Source: Streptomyces sp. NBC_01255 (GTDB lineage Bacteria > Actinomycetota > Actinomycetes > Streptomycetales > Streptomycetaceae). From it: a DNA stretch of 64,000 bases. Of the stretch, positions 6,842 through 34,998 are shown piece by piece. The stretch is taken from NCBI RefSeq assembly GCF_036226445.1, contig NZ_CP108474.1, positions 5,022,001 to 5,086,000 on the forward strand, written 5' to 3'. Positions within the stretch are counted from its first letter, which is position 1, and every line of letters starts with the position of its first letter. A program made the translations under genes and the position numbers. The notes under the pieces are model-generated. The model was not told the origin of the DNA, did no database searches, and worked only from the letters and a program-made list of their open reading frames with translations.

Positions 6842-9622
6842 ATGGCAGCCCAGCGGACCCAGGCCCTCGTCCTCATCGGCCACGGCATGGTCGGCCACCG
6901 GCTCCTGGAGGCGCTGGCCGAGCGCGGGGCGCTCGCGGACCCGGCCGACCCGGACGGGCCCGGCTGGCGGGTGACCGTGCTCGCGGAGGAGGACGTGCCC
7001 GCCTACGACCGGGTTCATCTCTCCTCCGTCTTCACCGGTACCGACCCAAACCAACTGGGCCTCTCCACGCCCGAGTTCCTCTCCGGGCACGGCATCGACC
7101 TGCGGCTCGGCGACCCGGCCGAGCTCGTCGACACGGCCGCCCGCACGGTCACCACCACCTCCGGCGCCGTCGTCGCCTACGACGCGCTGGTCCTGGCCAC
7201 CGGCTCGTACCCCTTCGTGCCGCCGATCCCCGGCGCCGACGCGCCCGGCTGCTTCACCTACCGCACGCTCTACGATGTCGACGCGCTCACGACGTACACC
7301 GAGGCCGACGGGGCCGCCGCGGCGGAGGAGTTCCGTACCGGCGTCGTCATCGGCGGCGGGCTTCTCGGCCTGGAGGCCGCCGGGGCACTCCGTACGCTCG
7401 GACTCGCCACGCACGTCGTCGAGTTCGCGCCCCGCCTCATGCCGCTCCAGGTCGACGACGGCGGCGCGGCGGCCCTGCGCGCCACCATCGAGTCGATGGG
7501 CGTGGCCGTGCACACGGGCGTCGGAGCCGCCGAGGTCGAGACGGACGCGGACGGGAAGGTGTGCGGCCTCAGGCTGTCGAGCGGCGAGGAGCTCCCCGCC
7601 GACGTCGTCGTCTTCTCCGCCGGGGTGCGGCCGCGCGACCGGCTCGCCCGCGAGGCGGGGCTCGCGGTCGGGGACCGCGGGGGAGTGGCGGTGGACGAAC
7701 GCTGCCGGACTACCGATCCGTACGTGTACGCGATCGGGGAGTGCGCGCAGACCTCCGACGGGCGGGTGTACGGGCTCGTGGCGCCCGGCTACCAGATGGC
7801 GGAGGCGGTCGCCGACCAGCTCGCGGGCGACGGGACGACCGTGTTCACGGGCGCCGACACCTCCACCAGGCTGAAGCTGCTCGGCGCGGACGTGGCCTCC
7901 TTCGGCGATCCTTTCGCGGAGGGGGCGCAGGCCGCCGAGGTGGTCTTCTCGGACGGGCGCGAGGGCGTCTACAAGAAGCTGCTCTTCGGCCCTGAGGGGC
8001 AGCTCCTCGGCGGCATCCTGGTCGGCGACGCCGACGCGTACGGCTCGCTCAAGCCGCACGCCGGACGGCAACTGCCGGCCCCGCCCGCCGCGTTCCTCCT
8101 CCCCGCCTCCGCCGCCGGTGCCGAGCCGCCCGGCGCAGACGCGCTCCCCGACGACGCCGTCGTCTGCTCCTGCCACAACGTGACGAAGGGCGCGGTGGCC
8201 GGGGCGATCGCCGAGCACGGACTGACCGACATCGGCGGGATCAAGCGCTGCACCAAGGCCGGCACCGGCTGCGGAGGGTGCGTGAACACCCTCCAGGCCG
8301 TCCTCGACGCGGCGGGCGTGGAGAAGCCGAAGGGCCTGTGCGAGCACTTCCCCGAGCTCTCCCGCCCGGAGCTGTACGCGCTCGTCCGCGACGAACACAT
8401 CCGCTCGTACAGCGAGCTGGTGGAGAGGCACGGCTCCGGCGGCGCGGGCTGCACGGTCTGCAAGCCGGTCGTGGCCAACGTCCTCGGCACCCTCGCACCC
8501 GAACTGGGCCTGCGGCACGTCCTGGAGGGCGAGCAGGCCGCGCTCCAGGACTCCAACGACCTCTTCCTCGCCAACCTCCAGAAGGACGGCACGTACTCGG
8601 TGGTGCCGCGCGTCCCCGGCGGCGAGATCACCGCCGAACAGCTCATCGTCATCGGCGAGGTGGCCCGCGACCACGGCCTCTACAGCAAGATCACCGGCGG
8701 TCAGCGGATCGACCTCTTCGGCGCGAGGAAGGAGGAACTGCCCGCCATCTGGCGGCGGTTGATCGCCGCCGGATTCGAGTCGGGGCAGGCGTACGGAAAG
8801 TCCCTTCGGACGGTCAAGTCCTGCGTAGGGTCCCGGTTCTGCCGCTTCGGGCAGGGCGACTCGGTGCAGCTCGCGATCGACCTGGAGCTCCGCTACCGGG
8901 GCCTGCGCGCCCCGCACAAGATCAAGGGCGGGGTCTCGGGCTGTCTGCGCGAGTGCGCGGAGGCCCGCGGCAAGGACATCGGCGTCATCGCCACCGCCGG
9001 CGGCTGGAACCTCTACGTCTGCGGCAACGGCGGCACGAATCCCCGCCACGCCGACCTGCTCGCCTCCGACCTGTCGGCCGCCGGGCTGTTCGCGCTGATC
9101 GACCGCTTCCTCATGTACTACGTACGGACGGGGGAGCGCCTGGAGCGCACCTCGGCGTGGCTGGAGCGGCTCGGTGGGGGGACGGATCACCTCCGGGAGG
9201 TCCTGATCGAGGACTCGCTGGGGATCGGCGCCGAGCTCGAAGCGCAGATGGACCGGCACGTCGCCGCGTACCGCGACGAGTGGCGGGCCGTCCTCGACGA
9301 CCCGGCGGCTCTGGCCCGCTTCGAGCCGCACGTGGCCGGGGTGGAGTTCCTGGAGCCGGGGCGCGGGCGGGCCGCCGTCCTCGCGGACGGCACGGAGGCG
9401 GCGCTCTTCCGGGACGGGGACGGCGAGGTGTACGCGGTGGGGAACCGGGACCCGTTCTCGGGCGCCGACGTCATCGCGAACGGGATCATGGGCAGCCGCG
9501 ACGGGGTGCCGGTCGTGGCCTCTCCGATGCACAAGCAGGAGTTCGACCTGCGGACCGGGGCGTGCCTCGACGACCCGGAGGTGTCCCTCCCGGTGCTGCC
9601 GGTTCCTCCGGCCCCTCGCTGA
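6842..9622 (+). CDS. nirBD: NADH/NADPH nitrite reductase, NirB fused to NirD
   Basis: A 926-aa cytoplasmic enzyme that reduces nitrite to ammonium with NAD(P)H. Domains in order: FAD/NAD(P)-binding oxidoreductase (first nucleotide motif at about residues 10-20, second VVIGGGLLGLEAAG near 167-180, FAD motif VYAIGECAQ near 299); BFD-like [2Fe-2S] domain with CSC at 441-443 and CTKAGTGCGGC at about 471-481; ferredoxin-like repeat; and the [4Fe-4S]-siroheme domain with Cys 661, 667, 701 and 705 (CVGSRFC and GCLREC). From about residue 820 it continues into a Rieske-like NirD domain (EFLEPGRGRAAVLADG ... PVVASPMHKQEFDLRTG), normally a separate small subunit. GGAGA six bases before ATG supports the start. 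The neighbouring chelatase and NarK fit nitrate/nitrite assimilation. Confidence 0.92.
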   Translation: MAAQRTQALVLIGHGMVGHRLLEALAERGALADPADPDGPGWRVTVLAEEDVPAYDRVHLSSVFTGTDPNQLGLSTPEFLSGHGIDLRLGDPAELVDTAARTVTTTSGAVVAYDALVLATGSYPFVPPIPGADAPGCFTYRTLYDVDALTTYTEADGAAAAEEFRTGVVIGGGLLGLEAAGALRTLGLATHVVEFAPRLMPLQVDDGGAAALRATIESMGVAVHTGVGAAEVETDADGKVCGLRLSSGEELPADVVVFSAGVRPRDRLAREAGLAVGDRGGVAVDERCRTTDPYVYAIGECAQTSDGRVYGLVAPGYQMAEAVADQLAGDGTTVFTGADTSTRLKLLGADVASFGDPFAEGAQAAEVVFSDGREGVYKKLLFGPEGQLLGGILVGDADAYGSLKPHAGRQLPAPPAAFLLPASAAGAEPPGADALPDDAVVCSCHNVTKGAVAGAIAEHGLTDIGGIKRCTKAGTGCGGCVNTLQAVLDAAGVEKPKGLCEHFPELSRPELYALVRDEHIRSYSELVERHGSGGAGCTVCKPVVANVLGTLAPELGLRHVLEGEQAALQDSNDLFLANLQKDGTYSVVPRVPGGEITAEQLIVIGEVARDHGLYSKITGGQRIDLFGARKEELPAIWRRLIAAGFESGQAYGKSLRTVKSCVGSRFCRFGQGDSVQLAIDLELRYRGLRAPHKIKGGVSGCLRECAEARGKDIGVIATAGGWNLYVCGNGGTNPRHADLLASDLSAAGLFALIDRFLMYYVRTGERLERTSAWLERLGGGTDHLREVLIEDSLGIGAELEAQMDRHVAAYRDEWRAVLDDPAALARFEPHVAGVEFLEPGRGRAAVLADGTEAALFRDGDGEVYAVGNRDPFSGADVIANGIMGSRDGVPVVASPMHKQEFDLRTGACLDDPEVSLPVLPVPPAPR

Positions 9623-9744
9623 CGGGACCTCCGCCCGCCGGACCGGCGACCATCGGCACTCACGCCCCCCTTACCCCGAAGCGCAGCCTGGAAGAGCAAG
9701 GAAAGTCTGCGAAAGCCGAGAAGGCGAAAAGGCAGGGAAGCGCC

Positions 9745-11178
9745 ATGAGTTCCGTAGTCCAGTCCCAGGACCAGGGCAGTAGAAGGACGGGCGGGCCCGC
9801 CCCGTCGTACGACACGGAGCAGTACCGTCCCGGGAAGCCGATCACCGACTGGGAGCCCGAGAACGAGCTCTTCTGGAAGTCCATCGGCAAGAAGGTCGCC
9901 ACCCGTAATCTCTGGATCGCGGTTCCGGCGCTGCTCGTGGCCTTCGTCGTCTGGCAGGTCTGGTCGGTCACCGCGACCAATCTCAAGGACGTCGGCTTCG
10001 GCTTCTCCACCTCGCAGCTGTTCTGGCTGACGGCCATCCCCGGTCTGACCGGCGGCACGGCCCGGATCTTCTACACCTTCCTCGGCCCGATGGTCGGCCA
10101 GCGCCGCTTCACCGCGCTGTCGACGGTCGTCCTGATCGTGCCGCTGATCTGGCTCGGCATCGCCATCCAGGATCCGACGACCCCGTACGGCGTGATGGTC
10201 GCCATCGCCGCGCTCTGCGGCATCGGCGGCGCGAACTTCGCCTCGTCCCTCGCCAACATCGGCTTCTTCTTCCCGAAGGCCAGGAAGGGCAGCGCGACCG
10301 GCATCAACGGCGGTCTCGGCAACCTCGGCGTCTCCGTCGTCCAGCTCCTCACCCCGATTGTCATCACCTGGTCGACGATCGCGATCGGCTCCGCGCAGCA
10401 CAAGGCCGACGGCACTCCCGTCTACCTGCAGAACGCCGCGTTCCTCTGGGTGCCGATCCTGCTGATCCTCGCGGCCGTCGCCTGGTTCGGGCAGAACGAC
10501 CTCAAGGTGGCCTCGACCCCCTTCAGCCAGCAGAAGATCATCTTCAAGCGGAAGCACAACTGGCTGATGACCTGGCTGTACGTCGGCACCTTCGGCTCCT
10601 TCATCGGCTTCGCCGCCGCCCTGCCGATGCTCATCAAGACCACGTTCCCGGACTACTCCGTCGCCACCTACGCCTGGATGGGCCCGGCCGTCGGCGCCCT
10701 CGCCCGCTGGGGCGGCGGCTGGATCGCCGACAAGTGGGGCGGCGCCCGGGTCACGATCCTGTCCTTCGTGGGCATGGCCGTCTCCATCGTCGGCGTGATC
10801 ACCTTCCTGCCCTCGGGCAGTGACAGCGGCTCCTTCTACGGTTTCTTCTTCTGCTTCCTCGCCGCGTTCTTCTTCTCCGGAATCGGGAACGGTTCGACGT
10901 TCCGGCAGATCCCGGTCATCTTCCGCGGCACCCACCTGAAGGGCCTTGAGGAAGGCGCCCCGGAATACGCCAGGGCGCTCAAGCAGGCGGAAATGGAGTC
11001 GGGTGCCGTCACCGGATTCACCTCGGCCATCGCCGCCTACGGTTTCTTCTTCATCCCGGCCCTCTTCGCCTCGGTGGCCGTGACCAGCGCGATGTGGGGA
11101 TTCGTCGCCTTCTACGTCAGCTGCATGGTCGTGACCTGGTGGTTCTACGCCCGCAAGAGCGCCGAGGCACCCAGCTGA
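9745..11178 (+). CDS. narK: Nitrate/nitrite transporter, NarK/NasA type MFS
   Basis: This is a 477-aa MFS carrier with about 12 helices. A 60-residue cytoplasmic N-terminus leads into ATRNLWIAVPALLVAFVVW. Two nitrate-signature-like glycine-rich stretches are visible, GIGGANFASSLANIGFFFP (about 165-183) plus SATGINGGLGNLGV, and GIGNGSTFRQIPVIF (about 382-396). The LARWGGGWIADKWGG loop is also typical of NarK proteins. The function is nitrate uptake and/or nitrite exchange across the cytoplasmic membrane. It follows nirBD by 122 bases, so co-transcription is plausible. ATG 9745 follows a GGGAAG ribosome site; the upstream open frame is non-coding shadow. Confidence 0.9.
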   Translation: MSSVVQSQDQGSRRTGGPAPSYDTEQYRPGKPITDWEPENELFWKSIGKKVATRNLWIAVPALLVAFVVWQVWSVTATNLKDVGFGFSTSQLFWLTAIPGLTGGTARIFYTFLGPMVGQRRFTALSTVVLIVPLIWLGIAIQDPTTPYGVMVAIAALCGIGGANFASSLANIGFFFPKARKGSATGINGGLGNLGVSVVQLLTPIVITWSTIAIGSAQHKADGTPVYLQNAAFLWVPILLILAAVAWFGQNDLKVASTPFSQQKIIFKRKHNWLMTWLYVGTFGSFIGFAAALPMLIKTTFPDYSVATYAWMGPAVGALARWGGGWIADKWGGARVTILSFVGMAVSIVGVITFLPSGSDSGSFYGFFFCFLAAFFFSGIGNGSTFRQIPVIFRGTHLKGLEEGAPEYARALKQAEMESGAVTGFTSAIAAYGFFFIPALFASVAVTSAMWGFVAFYVSCMVVTWWFYARKSAEAPS

Positions 11179-11198
11179 GCCCCTGTTTTCCTCGTCAT

Positions 11199-11228
11199 CG
11201 GAAGGTCCCGCCACGGCGGGGCCTTCCG
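11199..11228 (+). terminator. Hairpin after narK
   Basis: A 13-bp stem (11199-11211 with 11216-11228, one T-G wobble) closes a CACG loop 20 bases after the narK stop. It separates the nirBD-narK unit from the pfl unit. Confidence 0.75.
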
Positions 11229-11282
11229 GCGTTCCCGGAACAGGACCAAAGCCCGTCGACCGGTGACCAATGCCGACCGAAA

Positions 11283-11292
11283 TGATCGATCA
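11283..11292. promoter_or_regulatory. Palindrome TGATCGATCA upstream of pflB
   Basis: A perfect 10-bp palindrome in a locally AT-rich stretch lies just upstream of the leader peptide and pflB. It could be half or all of an operator for a redox or oxygen regulator, but it does not match the FNR consensus spacing (TTGAT-N4-ATCAA) or the actinobacterial Rex site. A chance palindrome is possible. Confidence 0.3.
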
Positions 11293-11303
11293 AAAGGAGT
11301 GGA

Positions 11304-11333
11304 ATGGAGGTAAGCGAAGACGCGATCGAATGA
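11304..11333 (+). CDS. Possible 9-residue leader peptide before pflB
   Basis: ATG at 11304 is preceded by AAAGGAG at 11293-11299, the best ribosome-binding site in this stretch, and opens the short frame MEVSEDAIE followed by TGA. The stop lies 13 bases before the pflB start, whose own ribosome site is weak. This arrangement resembles an upstream peptide that delivers ribosomes to pflB by reinitiation or controls it. No run of a regulatory amino acid is seen. It could instead be a remnant of a former start. Confidence 0.4.
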
Positions 11334-11346
11334 ATCGAAGAAGGCG

Positions 11347-13626
11347 GTGCGGGCAGTGACTGCAACTCCTGCTGAGGCAACGACGACCGAGCGGGCCTGG
11401 AAGGGCTTCAAGGGCGGGCTCTGGCGCGACGCCGTCGACGTCCGCGACTTCATCCAGCAGAACTACACGCCGTACGAGGGCGACGACTCCTTCCTCGCAG
11501 GCCCCACCGAGCGGACCACCGCCGTGTGGAAGGCCATCACGGACAAGTTCCCGGAGGAGCGCGCCAAGGGCGTCCACGACGTCTCGTACGACATCCCCTC
11601 CACCATCACCGCCCACGCCCCCGGTTACATCGACCGCGACAAGGACCTGATCGTCGGCCTCCAGACCGACGCCCCGCTGAAGCGCGCGATCATGCCGTAC
11701 GGCGGCTGGCGCATGGTCGCCGGCGCCCTGGAGACCTACGGCTACCCGGTCTCCTCGGACCTGGAGAAGGTCTTCACCGAGTACCGCAAGACCCACAACG
11801 CCGGTGTCTTCGACGCGTACACCCCCGAGATCCGCGCCGCCCGCAAGGCCGGCATCGTCACCGGCCTCCCCGACGCCTACGGCCGCGGCCGCATCATCGG
11901 CGACTACCGCCGTGTCGCGCTCTACGGCGTCGACCGCCTGATCGCGGTGAAGAAGGAGGAGAAGGAGGAGCTCAACGCCCTCCCCGCAGGGAACCGCTCC
12001 CTGGAGGAGACCATCCGTCTCCGCGAGGAGCTCTCCGAGCAGATCCGCGCCCTCGGCGAACTCAAGGCGATGGCCGCCTCCTACGGCCACGACATCTCCG
12101 CCCCCGCCGGCACGGGCCGCGAGGCGATCCAGTGGCTGTACTTCGCCTACCTCGCCGCCGTGAAGGAGCAGAACGGCGCCGCGATGTCCCTCGGCCGGAC
12201 GTCCACCTTCCTCGACGTCTACCTCCAGCGCGACATCGAGGCCGGTCTCCTCACCGAGGAGCAGGCCCAGGAGCTCGTCGACGACTTCATCATCAAGCTC
12301 CGCATCGTCCGCTTCCTGCGCACCCCCGAGTACGACGAACTGTTCTCCGGCGACCCCACCTGGGTCACCGAGTCCATCGCCGGCATGGGGGAGGACGGCC
12401 GCCCGCTCGTCACGAAGACCTCCTTCCGCTACCTCCAGACGCTCTACAACCTCGGCCCGGCCCCCGAGCCGAACATGACGGTCTTCTGGTCGCCGCAGCT
12501 CCCGCAGGGCTTCAAGGAGTTCTGCGCGAGGGTCTCCATCGACACCTCCTCCGTCCAGTACGAGTCGGACGAGCTGATGCGGCCGCGCTTCGGCGACGAC
12601 ACCGCCATCGCCTGCTGCGTCTCCGCGATGCCCGTCGGCAAGCAGATGCAGTTCTTCGGCGCCCGTGTGAACCTCGCCAAGACCCTCCTCTACGCGATCA
12701 ACGGCGGCCGCGACGAGAAGTCCGGCGCCCAGGTCGGCCCGGAGAGCGGCCCCATCACTGCGGACGTCCTCGACTACGACGAGGTCATGGCCAAGTTCGA
12801 CGAGCAGATGGAGTGGCTCGCGAGCGTCTACGTCCACGCCCTGAACGTCATCCACTACATGCACGACCGGTACGCCTACGAGCGCATCGAGATGGCGCTC
12901 CACGACCGCGACGTGCGCCGCACCATGGCCTGCGGCATCGCCGGCCTCTCCGTCGCCGCCGACTCCCTCGCCGCCGTCAAGTACGCCAAGGTCACCCCGG
13001 TCCGGGACGAGACCGGCCTCGCGACCGACTACGTCATCGACGGCGAGTACCCGGCGTACGGCAACAACGACGAGCGCGTCGACCAGATCGCCGTCGGGCT
13101 GGTCGAGGAGTTCATGCGGAAGGTGCGCAAGCACCCGACGTACCGCGACGCCGAACACACCCAGTCCGTCCTGACCATCACCTCCAACGTCGTCTACGGC
13201 AAGAAGACCGGCAACACCCCCGACGGGCGCCGCGCGGGCGAGCCCTTCTCCCCGGGCGCCAACCCGATGAACGGCCGCGACACCCACGGCTACGTGGCCT
13301 CGGCCCTCTCGGTCGCCAAGCTCCCGTACGAGGACGCGGAGGACGGCATCTCGCTCACCAACACCGTCACCCCCGACGGCCTGGGCCGCACCCCCGAGGA
13401 GCGGATCAAGAACCTCGCCGGCGTCCTCGACGGCTACATGGCGAGCGACGGTTTCCACATGAACGTCAACGTCCTCAACCGCGACGTGCTGACGGACGCC
13501 ATGGAGCACCCGGAGAACCACCCGCAGCTGACCATCCGGGTCTCCGGATACGCGGTCAACTTCGTCCGGCTCACCCGCGAGCAGCAGCTCGACGTCCTGA
13601 ACCGCACCTTCCACGGCTCCCTGTAG
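11347..13626 (+). CDS. pflB: Pyruvate formate-lyase (formate C-acetyltransferase)
   Basis: This 759-aa glycyl-radical enzyme converts pyruvate and CoA to acetyl-CoA and formate without oxygen. The catalytic Cys pair is at 423-424 in IACCVSAMP and the radical-bearing Gly at 734 in the C-terminal RVSGYAVNF motif, both as in the E. coli enzyme, whose length (760) is also matched. Substrate-loop features such as [17 protein letters not shown] are present. GTG 11347 is used as start (GAAG six bases upstream); a second GTG three codons later is equally possible. The activase gene follows 84 bases downstream. A complete PFL in an aerobic actinomycete suggests survival metabolism under hypoxia. Confidence 0.95.
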
Positions 13627-13710
13627 CCCCTGCGACGCACCCGGGGCCGACGGCGGCCCTCACCCCCCGGCCCCGGGGTCGCGCCCGACACCTTCCACGG
13701 AGGTCCTGCC

Positions 13711-14496
13711 ATGACCAGCCTCACCATCGGACCCGCCACCCCGGCCGCCGCGGCGACCCACCGGCCCTCCGAGGGCTCGGTCCACTCCTGGGACCTGTCG
13801 ACCGGTGTCGACGGACCCGGCACCCGCTTCGTCACCTTCCTCTCCGGCTGCCCCCTCACCTGTCTCTACTGCCACAACCCCGACACCTGGAGGATGCGCA
13901 ACGGCACGCGCACCTCCGCCGACGACGTGATCGCCGAGGCGGCCAAGTACGTCCGCTTCATCGCCGCCTCCGGCGGCGGGGCCACCCTCTCCGGCGGGGA
14001 GCCCCTCCTCCAGCCCGTCTTCACCGGCGAGCTCCTGCACCGGATGAAGCACGAGCTCGGCCTCCACACGGCCCTCGACACCTCGGGCTTCCTCGGTGTC
14101 CGCGCCACCGACGCCCTGCTGCGCGACACCGACCTGGTCCTGCTCGACATCAAGTCCTGGGACCCGGACACGTACAAGAAGGTCACCGGGCGGCCGCTGC
14201 GGCCGACCCTGGACTTCGCCCGGCGCCTCGCCGACCTCGGCCAGGAGGTCCACGTCCGCTTCGTGCTCGTCCCGGGGCTCACCGACGCCCCCGCCAACGT
14301 CGAGGGAGTCGCCGCCTTCGCCGCCGGCCTCGGCAACGTCTCCCGCGTGGACATCCTCCCCTTCCACAAGCTCGGCGAAGCCAAGTGGCAAGCACTCGCC
14401 AAGCCGTTCACCCTCCACGACACCCCGTCCCCGACGCCCGAGCAGGTCGCCGAGGCCCGCGAGGTCTTCCTCTCCCACGGCCTGCACGCCGTCTGA
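13711..14496 (+). CDS. pflA: Pyruvate formate-lyase activating enzyme (radical SAM)
   Basis: A 261-aa radical-SAM protein that installs the glycyl radical on PflB. The cluster-binding motif is C47-x3-C51-x2-C54 (SGCPLTCLYCHNP), followed by the SAM-binding TLSGGEPLLQ near 93-102 and the TALDTSGF and VLLDIKSWDP strands. The length fits the PflA group without an extra ferredoxin insert. GGAGG upstream supports ATG 13711. It is placed directly behind its substrate gene pflB, as in most genomes. An N-terminal extension of about 25 residues (Ala/Thr/Pro-rich) precedes the conserved SVHSWDLSTGVDGPG start of the family. Confidence 0.93.
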   Translation: MTSLTIGPATPAAAATHRPSEGSVHSWDLSTGVDGPGTRFVTFLSGCPLTCLYCHNPDTWRMRNGTRTSADDVIAEAAKYVRFIAASGGGATLSGGEPLLQPVFTGELLHRMKHELGLHTALDTSGFLGVRATDALLRDTDLVLLDIKSWDPDTYKKVTGRPLRPTLDFARRLADLGQEVHVRFVLVPGLTDAPANVEGVAAFAAGLGNVSRVDILPFHKLGEAKWQALAKPFTLHDTPSPTPEQVAEAREVFLSHGLHAV

Positions 14497-14563
14497 GCGA
14501 CGCACTCACCCTGCCACCCCGCAAAACAGGACGAACCGGTACGTACGCCCTTACCGTGGCCGC

Positions 14564-15727
14564 GTGACCGAGCCACCGCAGACAGCCGAGCCGAGCCCCG
14601 CCCCCGGAGACCCGGCCGCGGCCCCAGGAGATCCCGCCCCCGGCGCCGTGCCCGGGGACCCCGCAGCCGCCGGACCCGCGCCGCAGACCCCCGCCGACGT
14701 GCGCCGCCGTGCGGTCCTCGCGGGCACCCTCGTCTCCCTGCTCCTGATCCTCGCGATCGTCTTCGGCAGCCGCCTGCTCCGCGACTTCGACTCGGCCCTC
14801 CTGCCGTACGCCGTCGCCACGGTCTTCCTCGCCTTCGGCGTCGCCTACCGGTACACCGTCTGGATCTCCGCCCCCGGCGCCCGCCGCCTCTTCAAGCAGG
14901 GCTGGCGGTCCTTCTTCTCCGCCGCGAACTTCCGCAAGGCGCCCACCGCCCTGCCCCGGATGATCGCCACCTACCTCGGCTTCCAGAAGTTCCTCGGCGC
15001 CCGCTCCCACGCCCGCTGGGCCGCCCACCAGCTCGTCTTCTGGGGCTGTCTGCTGGCCGCCGCGATCACCTTCCCCCTCACCTGGGGCTGGTTCACCTTC
15101 ACCTCCTCCACCGGCTCGGGGCCCGGCTACGAGATGCGGATCTGGGGCCTCAAGGTCGTCGGCTTCGACGCGCTCAGCATCCTCGGCTGGCTCATGTTCC
15201 ACGGCCTCGACATCGCCGCCGTCCTCGTCATCGCCGGCGCCTCCTACTTCCTCTGGCGCCGCATGAAGGACCGCGCGGCCATCACCGGCCAGCGGTTCGC
15301 CTACGACCTGGTGCCCCTCCTCGCCCTCATCGTCATCTCCGTGACGGGGCTCCTGCTCACCTTCTCGTCGATCTTCCTGCACGGCGGCGGCTACGAGTTC
15401 CTCGCCATCCTCCACATGGTGTCCGTGGTCTTCACCCTCATCTACATCCCCTTCGGGAAGTTCTTCCACATCGTCCAGCGGCCCGCGGCCGTCGGCATGC
15501 AGCTCTTCAAATACACCTCCCGCGGCAAGGGCGGGTCCGCCGACACCGTCCTCGCCTGCCGCCGCTGCCAGGAGCCCATCGACACCGCCCCCTACGTCGA
15601 GAACCTCCAGGGCACCATGCGCGACCTCGACCTGGGCTTCGACGAATGGGCCGAGTACTGCCCCCGCTGCAAGCGCGTCCTCCGCGGCAACGCCTACCTC
15701 GACCACGTGAAGAAGGGCTTCAAATGA
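14564..15727 (+). CDS. Membrane b-type/quinone-interacting subunit (NarI/HdrE-like)
   Basis: A 387-aa membrane protein: a proline/alanine-rich N-terminal tail (about 45 residues), then roughly six hydrophobic helices with histidines positioned near helix ends (HQLVFWGCLLAAA, MFHGLDIAAVL, LHMVSVVFTLIYIPFGKFFHI), as in NarI-type haem b subunits. The C-terminal cytoplasmic part has a zinc-ribbon-like pair CRRC ... CPRC. Its stop codon overlaps the next start (ATGA), so it is translated together with the molybdopterin subunit and probably anchors it and exchanges electrons with quinones. The start is GTG 14564; no good ribosome site is seen, so a leaderless message is possible. It is not a typical MFS carrier despite its helices. 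Confidence 0.65.
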   Translation: MTEPPQTAEPSPAPGDPAAAPGDPAPGAVPGDPAAAGPAPQTPADVRRRAVLAGTLVSLLLILAIVFGSRLLRDFDSALLPYAVATVFLAFGVAYRYTVWISAPGARRLFKQGWRSFFSAANFRKAPTALPRMIATYLGFQKFLGARSHARWAAHQLVFWGCLLAAAITFPLTWGWFTFTSSTGSGPGYEMRIWGLKVVGFDALSILGWLMFHGLDIAAVLVIAGASYFLWRRMKDRAAITGQRFAYDLVPLLALIVISVTGLLLTFSSIFLHGGGYEFLAILHMVSVVFTLIYIPFGKFFHIVQRPAAVGMQLFKYTSRGKGGSADTVLACRRCQEPIDTAPYVENLQGTMRDLDLGFDEWAEYCPRCKRVLRGNAYLDHVKKGFK

Positions 15728-18048
15728 CGGCGGCCGACCCCGCGACCACCCCCGGGCAGCCGCTGCCGCTCGACCCCTCCCTCGCCCCGCCCGGCACCCG
15801 CGCCTTCCGCGACGCCGGGGGCATCCCCGCCGACCGCTGGCACGCCGACCAGAACGGCGAGACCCTCGTCCCCACCCACTGCTGCTTCTGCGGAGTCCAG
15901 TGCGGCATGTACCTCCGCGTCGACCGCGGAGGCAAGGTCTTCGGCGTCGAGCCCCGCAACCACGACATCAACCGCATGCGGCTCTGCCCCAAGGGCATCA
16001 ACGCCTACCAGCAGGTCAACCACCCCGACCGGCTCACCGCGCCCCTCATGCGCGCCAACCGCGACGAGGAGTTCCGCGAGGTCAGTTGGGAAGAGGCCCT
16101 CGACCGCACCGTCGCCGAGATCCGCCGCATCCAGGGCGAGTACGGCAACGACGCCTTCGGCCTCCTCGGCGGCGCCAGCCTCTTCTCCGAGAAGACCTAC
16201 CTCGTCGGCAAGTTCGCCCGCGTCGCCCTCAAGTCCCGGCACGTCGACTACAACGGCCGCCTCTGCATGGTCTCCGCCGCCGGCGCCAACAAGCTCGCCT
16301 TCGGCATCGACCGCGCCGGCAACCCCTTCTCCGACATCCTCCTCACCGACTGCCTCCTCATCGCCGGCTCCAACGTCGGCGAGTGCTTCCCGGTCATGAC
16401 CCAGTACCTGTGGGGAGCCCGCGACCGCGGCGCCACCCTCATCGTCGTCGACCCCCGCGAGACGGCCATCGCCCGCACCGCCGACGTCCACGTCGCGATC
16501 AAGCCCGGCACGGACTCCGCCTTCTTCAACGCCGTCCTCCACGTCGTCGTCGCCGAGGGCCTCACCGACGAGGCCTACCTCGCCGCCCACACCACCGGCT
16601 GGGCGGAGGTCAGGAAGACCGTCGCCGACTATCCGCCCTCCCGCTCCGCCACGATCTGCGGCGTACCCGAGGAGCAGATCGTCCAGGTCGCCCGCATGTT
16701 CGCCGGCGCGGGCAAGGCCATGGCCTGGCACGCCCGCGGCGTCGAGCACCACTCCCAGGGCGTCGAGAACTGCCTCTCGATCATCAATCTCTGCGTCGCC
16801 ACCGGGCACATCGGCAAGCCCGGCGCCGGCTACGGCACGATCACCGGCCAGGGCAACGGTCAGGGCGGCCGCGAACACGGCCAGAAGTCCGACCTCCTGC
16901 CCGGCGGCCGCTCCATCACCAACCCCGAGCACCGCCGCCAGATCTGCGAGATCTGGGGCGTCGACGAGGCCGAACTCCCACTCGCCGGCACCTCCATGAT
17001 GGAGATGGTCTGGCAGATGCAGCGCAAGGAGATCCGCGGCCTCGTCGGCATCTGCAACAACCCCTTCGTCTCGCTCCCGAACTACGCCACCGTCAAGGAC
17101 GGCTACGACACCCTCGAATTCCACGCCCAGTTCGACTTCTTCCTCTCCGAGACCGCCGCCAACGCCCACGTCGTCTTCCCGGTCACCGTCTGGGCCGAGG
17201 ACGAGGGCGTCATGGCCAACGCCGAGGCCCGGGTCGTCAAGCACAACAAGGCCCAGGAACCCCCCGCCGGAGTCCGCACCGACACCTGGGTCATGTGCGA
17301 ACTCGCAAAACGGCTCGGCGCGGGCGACAAGTTCGACTTCCCGGACTCCCGCTCCGTCTTCGAGGAGCTCCGCGTCGCCTCCGCCGGCACGGTCAACGAC
17401 TACTACGGCATCACCTACGAACGCCTGGAGGAGACCGGCGGCATCGCCTGGCCCTGCCCCACCACGGAGCACCCCGGCACCCCGCGCCTCTTCGAGGACG
17501 GGACGACCTACCACCCCGACGGCAGGATCCATCTGCAGGTCGTCGAGTGGCACCCGCCCATGGACCCGTACAGCGAGGAGTACCCCCTCTCGCTCACCAC
17601 CGGCCGGACCGTCGCCCACTTCCTCTCCGGCAACCAGACCCGCCGGCTCGGCGCCCTCGTCGAACAGACCCCCCGCCCCTGGGTCGAGGTCCACCCCTCC
17701 CACGGCTTCCGCAACGGCGATCCCGTCCGTGTCGTCACCCGCCGCGGCAGCGAGGTCTTCCCCGCCCTCGTCACCGAGGCCATCCGCCCCGACACCGTCT
17801 TCATCCCCTACCACTGGCCCGTCCCCACCTCGGCGAACGCCCTCACCATCGACGCCCTCGACCCGCGCTCCAAGATCCCGGAGTACAAGGTCTGCGCCGC
17901 CCGCATCGAGGCCGCCGAACACGTCGACGACGTCCCCGCGCCGCCCACCGCCCCCGGACAGCAGGCCTACCCCGAGACCCAGGTCTCGCGCCTCGACCCG
18001 CTGCCCCCCACCTCCCCCCAGGGCCGCGGCACCGCGGAGAGGAGCTGA
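15724..18048 (+). CDS. Molybdopterin oxidoreductase, nitrate reductase-like (Nas/Nap clade)
   Basis: A 774-aa bis-MGD molybdoenzyme of the DMSO-reductase superfamily. The N-terminal [4Fe-4S] site is C53-x2-C56-x3-C60 and C88 (CCFCGVQCG ... RLCPKG). The molybdenum-ligand loop reads DYNGRLCMVSAAG with Cys 181; in NasA and NapA nitrate reductases this is RLCM/RHCM-SAV, whereas formate dehydrogenases have R-V-(C/U)-H. The C-terminal molybdopterin-binding domain (TTGRTVAHFLSGNQTRR) begins near residue 620. It lacks the C-terminal [2Fe-2S] domain of NasC-type enzymes. Translation is coupled to the membrane subunit (ATGA) and is followed by ferredoxin and Rieske subunits, giving a likely quinol-linked complex. 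Nitrate is the favoured substrate; formate is not excluded. Confidence 0.8.
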   Translation: MTAADPATTPGQPLPLDPSLAPPGTRAFRDAGGIPADRWHADQNGETLVPTHCCFCGVQCGMYLRVDRGGKVFGVEPRNHDINRMRLCPKGINAYQQVNHPDRLTAPLMRANRDEEFREVSWEEALDRTVAEIRRIQGEYGNDAFGLLGGASLFSEKTYLVGKFARVALKSRHVDYNGRLCMVSAAGANKLAFGIDRAGNPFSDILLTDCLLIAGSNVGECFPVMTQYLWGARDRGATLIVVDPRETAIARTADVHVAIKPGTDSAFFNAVLHVVVAEGLTDEAYLAAHTTGWAEVRKTVADYPPSRSATICGVPEEQIVQVARMFAGAGKAMAWHARGVEHHSQGVENCLSIINLCVATGHIGKPGAGYGTITGQGNGQGGREHGQKSDLLPGGRSITNPEHRRQICEIWGVDEAELPLAGTSMMEMVWQMQRKEIRGLVGICNNPFVSLPNYATVKDGYDTLEFHAQFDFFLSETAANAHVVFPVTVWAEDEGVMANAEARVVKHNKAQEPPAGVRTDTWVMCELAKRLGAGDKFDFPDSRSVFEELRVASAGTVNDYYGITYERLEETGGIAWPCPTTEHPGTPRLFEDGTTYHPDGRIHLQVVEWHPPMDPYSEEYPLSLTTGRTVAHFLSGNQTRRLGALVEQTPRPWVEVHPSHGFRNGDPVRVVTRRGSEVFPALVTEAIRPDTVFIPYHWPVPTSANALTIDALDPRSKIPEYKVCAARIEAAEHVDDVPAPPTAPGQQAYPETQVSRLDPLPPTSPQGRGTAERS

Positions 18049-18055
18049 CCCGCAC

Positions 18056-18655
18056 ATGATGGGCCGAACGATCTTCATCGACCCGGGCCGCTGCATCGGC
18101 TGCCAGGCCTGCGTCTCCGCCTGCCGCGAATGCGACTCCCACCGCGGCAAGTCGATGATCCACCTCGACTACCCCGACGAAGGCCACTCCGTCGCCTCCC
18201 TCCCCACCGTCTGCATGCACTGCGAGGACCCGGTCGCCCCCTGCGCCGAGGTCTGCCCCGCCGACGCGATCCTCGTCACCGCCGACGGCGTCGTGCAGCA
18301 GGCCGACACCACCCGCTGCATCGGCTGCGCCAACTGCGTCAACGCCTGCCCCTTCGGCGTCCCCAAGATCGACCTCCAGGCGAAGCTCCAGATGAAGTGC
18401 AACCTCTGCTACGACCGCACCGCCTACGGCCTCGCCCCCATGTGCGCCACCGTCTGCCCCACCGGCGCCCTCTTCTACGGAACCCTCGAAGAGCTCCAGG
18501 CGGAACGCCCCGGCGTCCAGGTCGCCGACTCCTTCACCTTCGGCACGACCACCGTCACCACCGGCGTCGCGATGGTCGTCCCCGCCGACAAGGTCCAGTG
18601 GCCGGTCCCGGGAGGTCTGCCCGTCGTCGAGATCAACGGAAGGGACGTCCGATGA
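18056..18655 (+). CDS. 4Fe-4S ferredoxin subunit (four-cluster, HybA/NrfC type)
   Basis: This 199-aa protein carries four cysteine motifs: CIGCQACVSACREC (from residue 14), CMHCEDPVAPCAEVCP, CIGCANCVNACPFG and CNLCYDR...CATVCPTGA. This is the electron-wire subunit of molybdoenzyme complexes, carrying electrons between the membrane haem subunit and the molybdopterin subunit. A GAGGAG site precedes ATG 18056 (a second ATG follows at once at 18059). The next gene overlaps by four bases. No signal sequence is present, so the complex faces the cytoplasm. Confidence 0.88.
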   Translation: MMGRTIFIDPGRCIGCQACVSACRECDSHRGKSMIHLDYPDEGHSVASLPTVCMHCEDPVAPCAEVCPADAILVTADGVVQQADTTRCIGCANCVNACPFGVPKIDLQAKLQMKCNLCYDRTAYGLAPMCATVCPTGALFYGTLEELQAERPGVQVADSFTFGTTTVTTGVAMVVPADKVQWPVPGGLPVVEINGRDVR

Positions 18656-19320
18656 GCGTCACCGACCCCCAGCCGCCCGCGCCGGACCCCCGCGCCGACG
18701 CGGCCCAGGAGGCGCTCCGCGACCGGATCGCCGCCGACTCCCTCACCACCCGCCGCGACTACCTGCGGATCGTCGCGACCGTCTCCGGCGGCCTGGCCGT
18801 CGGCGGCGTCGCCGTCGCCTCCGGCATCCTGCACCGCCACGGCGACAGCGAAGGGGCCCCCGAGATCAAGAAGGTCGCCGACCGGATCGAGCCGGGGGAG
18901 TCGCTCGCCTTCCGCTACCCGGGCGACGAGGACCGGGCCATCGCCGTCCGCATGGACGACGGCACCCTCGCCGGCTACTCCGCCGTCTGCACCCACCTCG
19001 CCTGCGCCGTGCTGTGGCGCAGGGAGCGGGGGAGCGAGGGAGAGCTGTACTGCCCCTGCCACGAGGGGATCTTCGACGCCCGTACGGGAGAGGTCACCGC
19101 CGGCCCGCCCCCGAGGGGCCTGCCGAAGGTGATCCTCGTCGAGCAGGTCGACGGCAGCGTCTGGGCGATCGGCACGGCCCGCTCGGGCGAGAGCGCCGTC
19201 GAGGGCTTCTGCCGCCAGAACGGCGAGGACCGTCCGGGCTGCCCCGGCTTCGGCGCGGAAGGCCCGGCCGCCCCGGCCGCCCCGGGCCGCAAGGCAGCCG
19301 AGAGGAGTGAGCGGACATGA
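18652..19320 (+). CDS. Rieske 2Fe-2S protein with twin-arginine-type anchor
   Basis: A 222-aa protein with an N-terminal cytoplasmic tail, a TTRRDYLRIVAT twin-arginine-like motif before one hydrophobic segment (about residues 33-55), and a Rieske domain with the ligand boxes CTHLAC (near 103-108) and CPCHEGIF (near 126-133). Such proteins pass electrons from quinol to partner enzymes. Coupling to the ferredoxin gene (ATGA at 18652) makes it part of the same complex. The tail ends in an Ala/Pro/Gly-rich stretch after two further cysteines (FCRQNGEDRPGCPG). Export by Tat would place the Rieske centre outside, unlike the soluble subunits; the topology is an inference. Confidence 0.85.
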   Translation: MSVTDPQPPAPDPRADAAQEALRDRIAADSLTTRRDYLRIVATVSGGLAVGGVAVASGILHRHGDSEGAPEIKKVADRIEPGESLAFRYPGDEDRAIAVRMDDGTLAGYSAVCTHLACAVLWRRERGSEGELYCPCHEGIFDARTGEVTAGPPPRGLPKVILVEQVDGSVWAIGTARSGESAVEGFCRQNGEDRPGCPGFGAEGPAAPAAPGRKAAERSERT

Positions 19321-19721
19321 GCGAGACCCCGTTCCCGAGGGACCCCGGAGCACCGGAGGCACCGGGTGCCCCGCCGCCGCCCGCGTACACCCCCGGCAGT
19401 GCCCAGCCGCGCCTGAACCGGCCGGTGCACGAGCGCTATCCGCAGATCCGGCCCACCAGCGGCTACGGCGACCCCCGGATCCGGCACACCGGGCCGGGCC
19501 CGGGAGCCGGCACGGAGCAGGAGCCGGAGCGCTCCTCGAAGCTGTCCGCGCGTCTCGCGCTGGCGCTCACGGTCGTCATCGGCCAGCTCTGGGGGCTGAC
19601 GATCGTGGTGGACGAGTGGATGACGGGCGACACCGGCACCGCGTGGTGGGGAGCCGGCTTCCTCGTCCTGTCGTTCCTGGTCGTGCTCGGGATCTGGCTC
19701 ATCGACCCGAAGGACCGCTGA
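19317..19721 (+). CDS. Small two-helix membrane protein of the molybdoenzyme operon
   Basis: A 134-aa protein: a long proline-rich N-terminal half (APEAPGAPPPPAYTPGSAQ) followed by two hydrophobic helices (about residues 79-98 and 108-130) ending in LIDPKDR. The ATGA overlap with the Rieske gene shows it is the last member of the coupled set. It may help anchor or assemble the complex. I recognise no family. Confidence 0.7.
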   Translation: MSETPFPRDPGAPEAPGAPPPPAYTPGSAQPRLNRPVHERYPQIRPTSGYGDPRIRHTGPGPGAGTEQEPERSSKLSARLALALTVVIGQLWGLTIVVDEWMTGDTGTAWWGAGFLVLSFLVVLGIWLIDPKDR

Positions 19722-34924: not shown

Positions 34925-34998
34925 GGGCCTGTGGCGCAGTCTGGTAGCGCACCTCGTTCGCATCGAGGGGGTCTGGGGTTCAAATCCCCACAGGTCCA
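34925..34998 (+). tRNA. tRNA-Ala(CGC)
   Basis: A complete cloverleaf: acceptor GGGCCTG (34925-34931) pairs with CAGGTCC (34991-34997) plus discriminator A; D stem GCGC/GCGC; anticodon stem CCTCG/CGAGG with loop TTCGCAT and anticodon CGC (reads GCG, alanine); T arm TGGGG-TTCAAAT-CCCCA. The 3' CCA is not encoded. Such genes are common phage integration targets, but no copy of its 3' end was found elsewhere in the window. Confidence 0.95.

Follow-up and report, generated by a model that had tools for sequence, protein, structure and literature searches.

What does a molybdoenzyme do that is encoded beside nitrite reductase and pyruvate formate-lyase (PFL) genes in a Streptomyces chromosome? We examined this question in the window, a stretch of 64,000 nt from Streptomyces sp. 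NBC_01255 (contig NZ_CP108474.1, positions 5,022,001 to 5,086,000), whose 8.57-Mb chromosome is designated G000 here. Named proteins with 97% identity and named loci with as much as 100% identity agree with a Streptomyces host. Window positions 6842-19721 carry, head to tail and all on the + strand, genes for a NirB-NirD fusion, NarK, PflB, PflA, and a five-gene operon that we refer to as A-E. An earlier reading of this DNA (the original prediction) had listed these genes in a single direction, and its gene content, coordinates, and strand, where given, were exact. It had also proposed that the operon encodes a nitrate-reducing complex. The Nas-type active site and the tree described below support this proposal at the sequence level, and A-E probably constitutes a membrane-bound nitrate reductase that is linked to quinol, faces the cytoplasm, and has a catalytic subunit of the Nas clade.

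The Molybdenum Subunit Is of the Nitrate Reductase Type

The product of gene B, a 774-residue protein with the three expected molybdoenzyme domains in a domain search, was matched best among NCBIfam models by NasC (NF047855). Its score of 762 bits is below the curated cut-off of 1100, a value passed in 0/150 Streptomyces genomes. The formate dehydrogenase alpha model (TIGR01591) ranked after NasC, at 564 bits and likewise below its cut-off (666). The top-scoring solved structures for B were formate dehydrogenases and PFL is adjacent in this genome, which would fit an enzyme that oxidizes the formate made by PFL. The original prediction had dismissed that idea on account of a molybdenum loop of the Nas/Nap type, NGRLCMVSAAG, and the loop is exactly this. 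All 43 aligned B proteins had nitrate reductase-type residues at both active-site positions (CM and TGQ), whereas four formate dehydrogenases had CH and RG[QH]; the His that follows the Mo-ligand Cys/Sec in formate dehydrogenases and the Arg of their RGQNN loop are absent from B, which has Met and Thr instead. This alignment took every fourth B protein from a set of 78 Streptomyces sequences and added 19 of the 21 distant proteins (L162 and L169 were too short), with E. coli NapA, FdhF, and FdnG, plasmid-borne NasA-like, Nas, and archaeal FdhF-like proteins, and three paralogs from the same genome as references.

Phylogenetic analysis with every thirteenth Streptomyces B placed 29 B sequences in one clade (support 100/99). 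Its sister group was a set of ten soluble Nas proteins (100/100 for the two groups together), and three NapA/NasA rows stood apart from B and Nas, as did the four formate dehydrogenases (99/95). The tree was rooted at its midpoint, and long reference branches were flagged by the tool. Clustering of B within the formate dehydrogenases, the outcome that the original prediction had named as its refutation, was not seen. Because formate dehydrogenases are nonetheless the best solved-structure matches, overall similarity alone is misleading for B. At all 21 distant actinobacterial loci, moreover, the complex occurred without PFL in the fetched stretch. It is thus exceedingly improbable that B oxidizes PFL-derived formate, and its assignment as a formate dehydrogenase was rejected on the two active-site positions and the tree.

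Elsewhere in the same genome, locus L179 encodes a true formate dehydrogenase with RLCH, and L178 (G000:C1:706001-718000) contains a 1410-residue open frame for a third Nas-type enzyme, in which the motifs SNSRLCM and TGQPNAM occur. The B protein of S. venezuelae ATCC 10712 (P0162) is full-length, though it aligned with 94% identity over only 66% of the query; the short alignment may reflect a local frame change.

Partner Subunits

The A protein has four conserved His residues and a C-terminal four-Cys domain. EtfD and NarI ranked highest when it was compared using VIA-align; a PDB profile search with A gave no real match, and Foldseek gave nothing below 0.001, with G protein-coupled receptors ranking first. 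A is predicted to be a NarI-like cytochrome b. Most of the named database entries listed, as well as the Deinococcus records, label it 'MFS transporter', although it is a cytochrome b-like protein instead. Because its elements follow a hairpin-then-helix order in the predicted model, the four-Cys domain seems closer to a structural zinc site than to a rubredoxin-like redox site.

Subunit C has 17 Cys residues in four ferredoxin motifs. In D, the twin-arginine motif and the Rieske motifs CTHLxC and CPCH, which hold the CxH and CxxH ligands and the disulfide pair typical of high-potential Rieske proteins, were invariant in 16/16 aligned proteins; the model for the arsenite oxidase Rieske subunit (TIGR02694) matched D with 33 bits, below its cut-off of 95.65. 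The motifs of C and D bear out the combination of a four-cluster ferredoxin with a twin-arginine Rieske protein, which had been singled out as unusual.

Conservation of the Operon

Overlaps of 4 bases join A to B, C to D, and D to E, and a 7-base gap lies between B and C, so that three of the four operon junctions are overlaps. Of 80 named Streptomyces loci, 72 extend 9 kb or more past A, and the order A-B-C-D-E was kept in all 72, which shows that the block is not due to chance. Among the 21 distant actinobacterial loci, A and B were present in 21, C and D in 20 (L162 ends within B), and a recognizable E in 11. The A-E block is therefore real and deeply conserved.

Gene A was found in 36/150 sampled congeneric genomes, with four copies partial or broken (G007, G037, G076, and G079), and the word 'uncommon' in the original prediction is consequently apt only in part. 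Across the phylum, A occurred in 26/396 genomes, three of them marginal (G173, G329, and G391). It was present on 4/72,556 plasmid records, all from Deinococcus and all four with the five-gene block; on three of these plasmids (L189, L190, and L191) an FmdE-family gene lies at most about 5 kb from the complex. One uncultured actinobacterium (G251) has two divergent copies of the complex (L167 and L172), one of the MoeA/MobA type described below and the other with an HPP gene after it. A protein search with alignment A1 has little bearing on the wider spread, since named proteins among the best 120 of 3600 matches were nearly all from Streptomyces.

Neighboring Genes and the Identity of the Substrate

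Outside Streptomyces, neighbors could be tested at loci that contain D followed by 1 kb or more of sequence (n = 23; L157, with 228 bases downstream, and L162, with D missing, were left out). In 19 of these, a NarK gene (10 loci, two on the opposite strand) or an HPP-family gene (9 loci) adjoined the downstream side of the block, and never both together; the remaining four had MoeA and MobA genes upstream. A passage in PMC4137279, citing Maeda 2014, reports nitrite transport activity for an HPP protein. In Streptomyces, NarK was found upstream in 30/68 and downstream in 3/68 loci with enough upstream sequence. GAF-type histidine kinase genes lie near four distant loci.

Nitrate as the substrate of A-E is inferred, and relatives in the superfamily use chlorate, selenate, or arsenate-type substrates, so another oxyanion of this kind might be reduced in its place. 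The Nas-clade active site of B argues against this, as does the presence of a NarK or HPP gene beside the block in 19/23 loci, these being unrelated families that share substrates; we consider reduction of another oxyanion most unlikely.

Genes for nitrite reduction were less uniform. NirB scored above its cut-off in 2/20 distant carriers and some NIR_SIR protein was present in 18/20, which may be a sulfite reductase or NirA. In L164, L167, and L168, a siroheme NIR_SIR gene (~560 residues) is located near D, at distances of about 4, 1, and 0.7 kb, respectively.

NarG, Nas, and Respiration

NarG was found in 51/150 congeneric genomes, and the complex was rarer where NarG was present: both occurred in 4/150 genomes compared to 12.2 expected (Fisher p = 6e-4, uncorrected for ancestry). 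In the phylum sample, 0/23 carriers (the 26 matches minus the three marginal ones) had NarG compared to 2.7 expected (p = 0.09, likewise uncorrected). No match to TIGR01580 at 1e-200 was found in the host genome, and B also falls outside this NarG search. In 24/36 Streptomyces carriers, the matches listed included another Nas-like protein, scoring 627 bits or more; a single Nas-like match, which in five cases may be the complex itself, was seen in six, and in another six the second match scored below those listed. A general replacement of soluble Nas by the complex was ruled out, since both are listed in many carriers.

These data bear on whether A-E might be an assimilatory nitrate reductase whose electron donor is quinol rather than NADH or ferredoxin, with NirBD or a NirA-like enzyme then making ammonium for biosynthesis. 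The position of B within the Nas clade, the nirBD gene upstream here, the NIR_SIR genes near D in three distant loci, and the six carriers with a single Nas-like match would all fit such a role. Opposed to it are the second Nas-like protein in 24/36 carriers, the scarcity of NirB in the distant carriers, and the depletion of NarG, which suggests an exchange with a respiratory enzyme. Assimilation is accordingly the less likely role, and respiration is favored.

PFL and Hypoxia

The neighboring PflB/PflA pair is complete, as had been predicted: both proteins scored above curated cut-offs and have the expected motifs. Whether PFL belongs to the system was assessed in the 68 Streptomyces loci that include 9 kb or more of upstream sequence. 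Complete PflB and PflA genes adjoined A in 33 of these (32 plus L038, which missed only the positional filter), 30 had no adjacent PFL, four had PFL remnants beside A-E (L023, L028, L045, and L094), and the matches of L042 were incomplete. Genome-wide, the complex and PFL occurred together in 16/150 genomes compared to 13.7 expected (p = 0.43), and in 13 of these 16 the PFL genes and A are adjacent, 2.1-3.5 kb apart. A required link between the complex and PFL, as implied by the original prediction, did not hold: PFL was ruled out as an obligate partner by the Streptomyces loci that lack it, by its absence from the 21 distant loci, and by a co-occurrence at expectation. PFL is an optional neighbor outside the machine, a passenger or helper in some lineages. 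In contrast, PFL and NarG were found together more often than expected (30/150 genomes compared to 19.4, p = 3e-4). Distances were measured in 13 of these 30 genomes, several with one narG copy measured; PFL lay within 55 kb of a narG in eight (G047, G035, G012, G114, G101, G055, G107, and G144) and far from it in five.

For control by oxygen, an OsdR consensus (maximum score 16) was built from sites quoted in part of PMC5069765, and upstream regions were compared with a Markov null; the loci are related and are not independent samples. Sites scoring at least 13 were found upstream of pflB in 26/36 regions of relatives (null, 4.7%) and upstream of narK in 25/34 (null, 6.5%). Upstream of A they were found in 6/80 regions (null, 8.4%), which is no enrichment; since the quoted part of PMC5069765 also describes non-consensus sites, OsdR control of A-E is possible despite this background-level count. 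The window's own pflB site scored 11, which is background, and its narK region scored 13, a value reached by 12/400 random 250-base stretches of the window. Counts upstream of nirBD (9/13 regions at 13 or above; null, 12.3%) were not used because the L058 region is a locus-end artifact. A 14-base DosR-like pattern gave a single match of 13 or more in the window, at an unrelated position. A promoter-like element that ends directly before the GTG start codon of A is conserved across the 72 upstream regions aligned (nine loci without an anchor were left out), with or without PFL.

The role in hypoxia suggested by the original prediction is therefore only partly supported, by the enrichment at pflB and narK in relatives and not by the window's pflB site or by A-E, and the link to hypoxia is indirect. 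A single hypoxia module could still be envisioned, in which PFL yields formate and acetyl-CoA, another enzyme passes electrons from formate to quinol, and A-E puts them on nitrate. Such a module would agree with the short PFL-A distance where both occur, the excess of PFL with NarG, the OsdR-like sites in relatives, the formate dehydrogenase of L179, and an expression table quoted from PMC6302529 in which the PFL, nar2, and osdR genes of S. lividans stand near each other. Yet the complex and PFL show no genome-wide association, A-E persists where PFL is lost or decayed, the sites upstream of A and the window's pflB site are at background, and the enrichment itself comes from related loci. Taken as a whole, these points make a single module unlikely.

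Organization of the Locus

Features are listed in Table 1. In the NirBD fusion, TIGR02374 spans residues 9-821 and is followed by a C-terminal Rieske_2 domain, and PflB has the glycyl-radical motif RVSGY and a CC pair. ARAGORN called a tRNA-Ser antisense within pflA (window positions 13912-14000, - strand); as Rfam supports only the tRNA at 34925-34998 in the window, this call is probably false.

Table 1. Features of the A-E locus (window coordinates)
Feature	Position	Strand	Evidence
NirB-NirD fusion, NADH-type siroheme nitrite reductase, neighbor	6842..9622	+	TIGR02374, 957 bits (cut-off 578)
NarK-type nitrate/nitrite transporter, neighbor	9745..11178	+	TIGR00886, 309.2 bits, just below cut-off (311.7)
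Degenerate OsdR-like palindrome, 5' of pflB	11241..11256	+	Score 11/16, background in window; position enriched in relatives
PflB, pyruvate formate-lyase, optional neighbor	11347..13626	+	TIGR01255, 1190.6 bits (cut-off 994.2)
PflA, PFL-activating radical SAM enzyme, optional neighbor	13711..14496	+	TIGR02493, above cut-off; CX3CX2C
Promoter-like element 5' of A, AAAACAGG ... TACCGT	14523..14557	+	Kept across 72 aligned upstream regions; predicted function
A, predicted NarI-like cytochrome b; four conserved His, C-terminal four-Cys domain	14564..15727	+	
B, molybdenum-bis(molybdopterin guanine dinucleotide) (Mo-bisMGD) catalytic subunit, Nas clade, without Tat-like N-terminus	15724..18048	+	
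C, four-cluster [4Fe-4S] ferredoxin subunit	18056..18655	+	Fer4_11 and other matches; 17 Cys
D, Rieske [2Fe-2S] protein, twin-arginine N-terminus	18652..19320	+	PF00355; RR, CTHLxC, CPCH invariant in 16/16
E, small DUF6755 membrane protein	19317..19721	+	PF20540, 27.2 bits (cut-off 27); alignment

Proposed Electron Path

The reading of A-E as a membrane-bound nitrate reductase draws on protein families and motifs, the conservation of the block, its association with transporters, and the depletion of NarG; from these we infer assembly into one complex, nitrate as the substrate, quinol as the donor, the order of electron transfer, the sidedness, and the role of D. Menaquinol would be oxidized by the NarI-like cytochrome b (A), and electrons would pass from A to the four [4Fe-4S] clusters of C and then via the single [4Fe-4S] cluster of B to Mo-bisMGD on the cytoplasmic side, where B would reduce nitrate to nitrite inside the cell. 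The NarK or HPP neighbors, or NirBD and NirA-like enzymes, could handle nitrate and nitrite. As an outward-facing Rieske protein of the twin-arginine translocation (Tat) type, D may be the redox partner of A on the outer side, where it would take part in quinol oxidation or exchange electrons with the bcc complex. According to PMC7931247, Nar1 of S. coelicolor requires the bcc-aa3 supercomplex, and this lends plausibility to a Rieske link in nitrate reduction by Streptomyces. A bolder idea is that D and A form a new quinol oxidase, whose outer site would split the electrons of menaquinol, one going to the Rieske cluster (and onward to bcc or back) and the other via the b hemes and five [4Fe-4S] clusters to nitrate inside the cell, thereby coupling nitrate reduction to proton release. 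Such a bc1-like, possibly bifurcating mechanism on a NarI scaffold is speculative, and we regard it as quite unlikely.

Neither a description of the A-E complex nor text on DUF6755 was found in open-license PMC text, and A-E is a variant of nitrate reductase undescribed in the open-access text searched. If our reading is correct, the Nas clade gains a membrane-bound branch of respiratory type, present in 36/150 Streptomyces genomes, uncultured Actinomycetota, and Deinococcus plasmids; Streptomyces lacking NarG could dispose of electrons on nitrate via A-E; and a role for a Rieske protein in inward-facing nitrate reduction becomes testable in a genus that is harmless and tractable.

Comparison with Known Systems

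B resembles the assimilatory enzymes NasC, NasA, and NarB in its clade, active-site motifs, single [4Fe-4S] cluster with Mo-bisMGD, and lack of a Tat-like signal. Those enzymes are soluble, with NADH- or ferredoxin-linked partners, whereas the gene for B is accompanied by those for a cytochrome b, a four-cluster ferredoxin, a Rieske protein, and E in 72/72 Streptomyces loci. A MopB survey, in the part quoted, describes the Nas clade as exclusively assimilatory (PMC10100899). The predicted A-E layout of a molybdenum subunit on the N-side, a four-cluster Fe-S subunit, and a NarI-like cytochrome b is like that of NarGHI. Unlike in NarGHI, B belongs to another clade, C is much shorter than NarH, extra Rieske and DUF6755 genes are present, and no NarJ was found in the A-E operon.

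Rieske proteins accompany molybdoenzymes in other systems as well. Haloarchaeal Nar, according to portions of PMC2483277 and PMC4683180, also has Rieske (NarB) and cytochrome b (NarC) genes beside its nitrate reductase genes; its active site is outside the cell and its cytochrome b is of the bc1 type, whereas A-E has a Nas-type subunit predicted on the N-side and a NarI-like cytochrome. The arsenite oxidase AioAB likewise pairs a molybdenum enzyme with a Tat-type Rieske protein, and TIGR02694 matches D below its cut-off. AioA has no protein ligand to Mo, according to the same part of PMC10100899, and AioAB has no cytochrome b; B, in contrast, has a Cys. Finally, Nar1 of S. coelicolor is, like the proposed complex, a Streptomyces nitrate reductase tied to a Rieske-containing complex, here bcc-aa3 (PMC7931247). 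Nar1 is a NarGHI enzyme and uses the Rieske protein of bcc, whereas the A-E operon carries a Rieske gene of its own.

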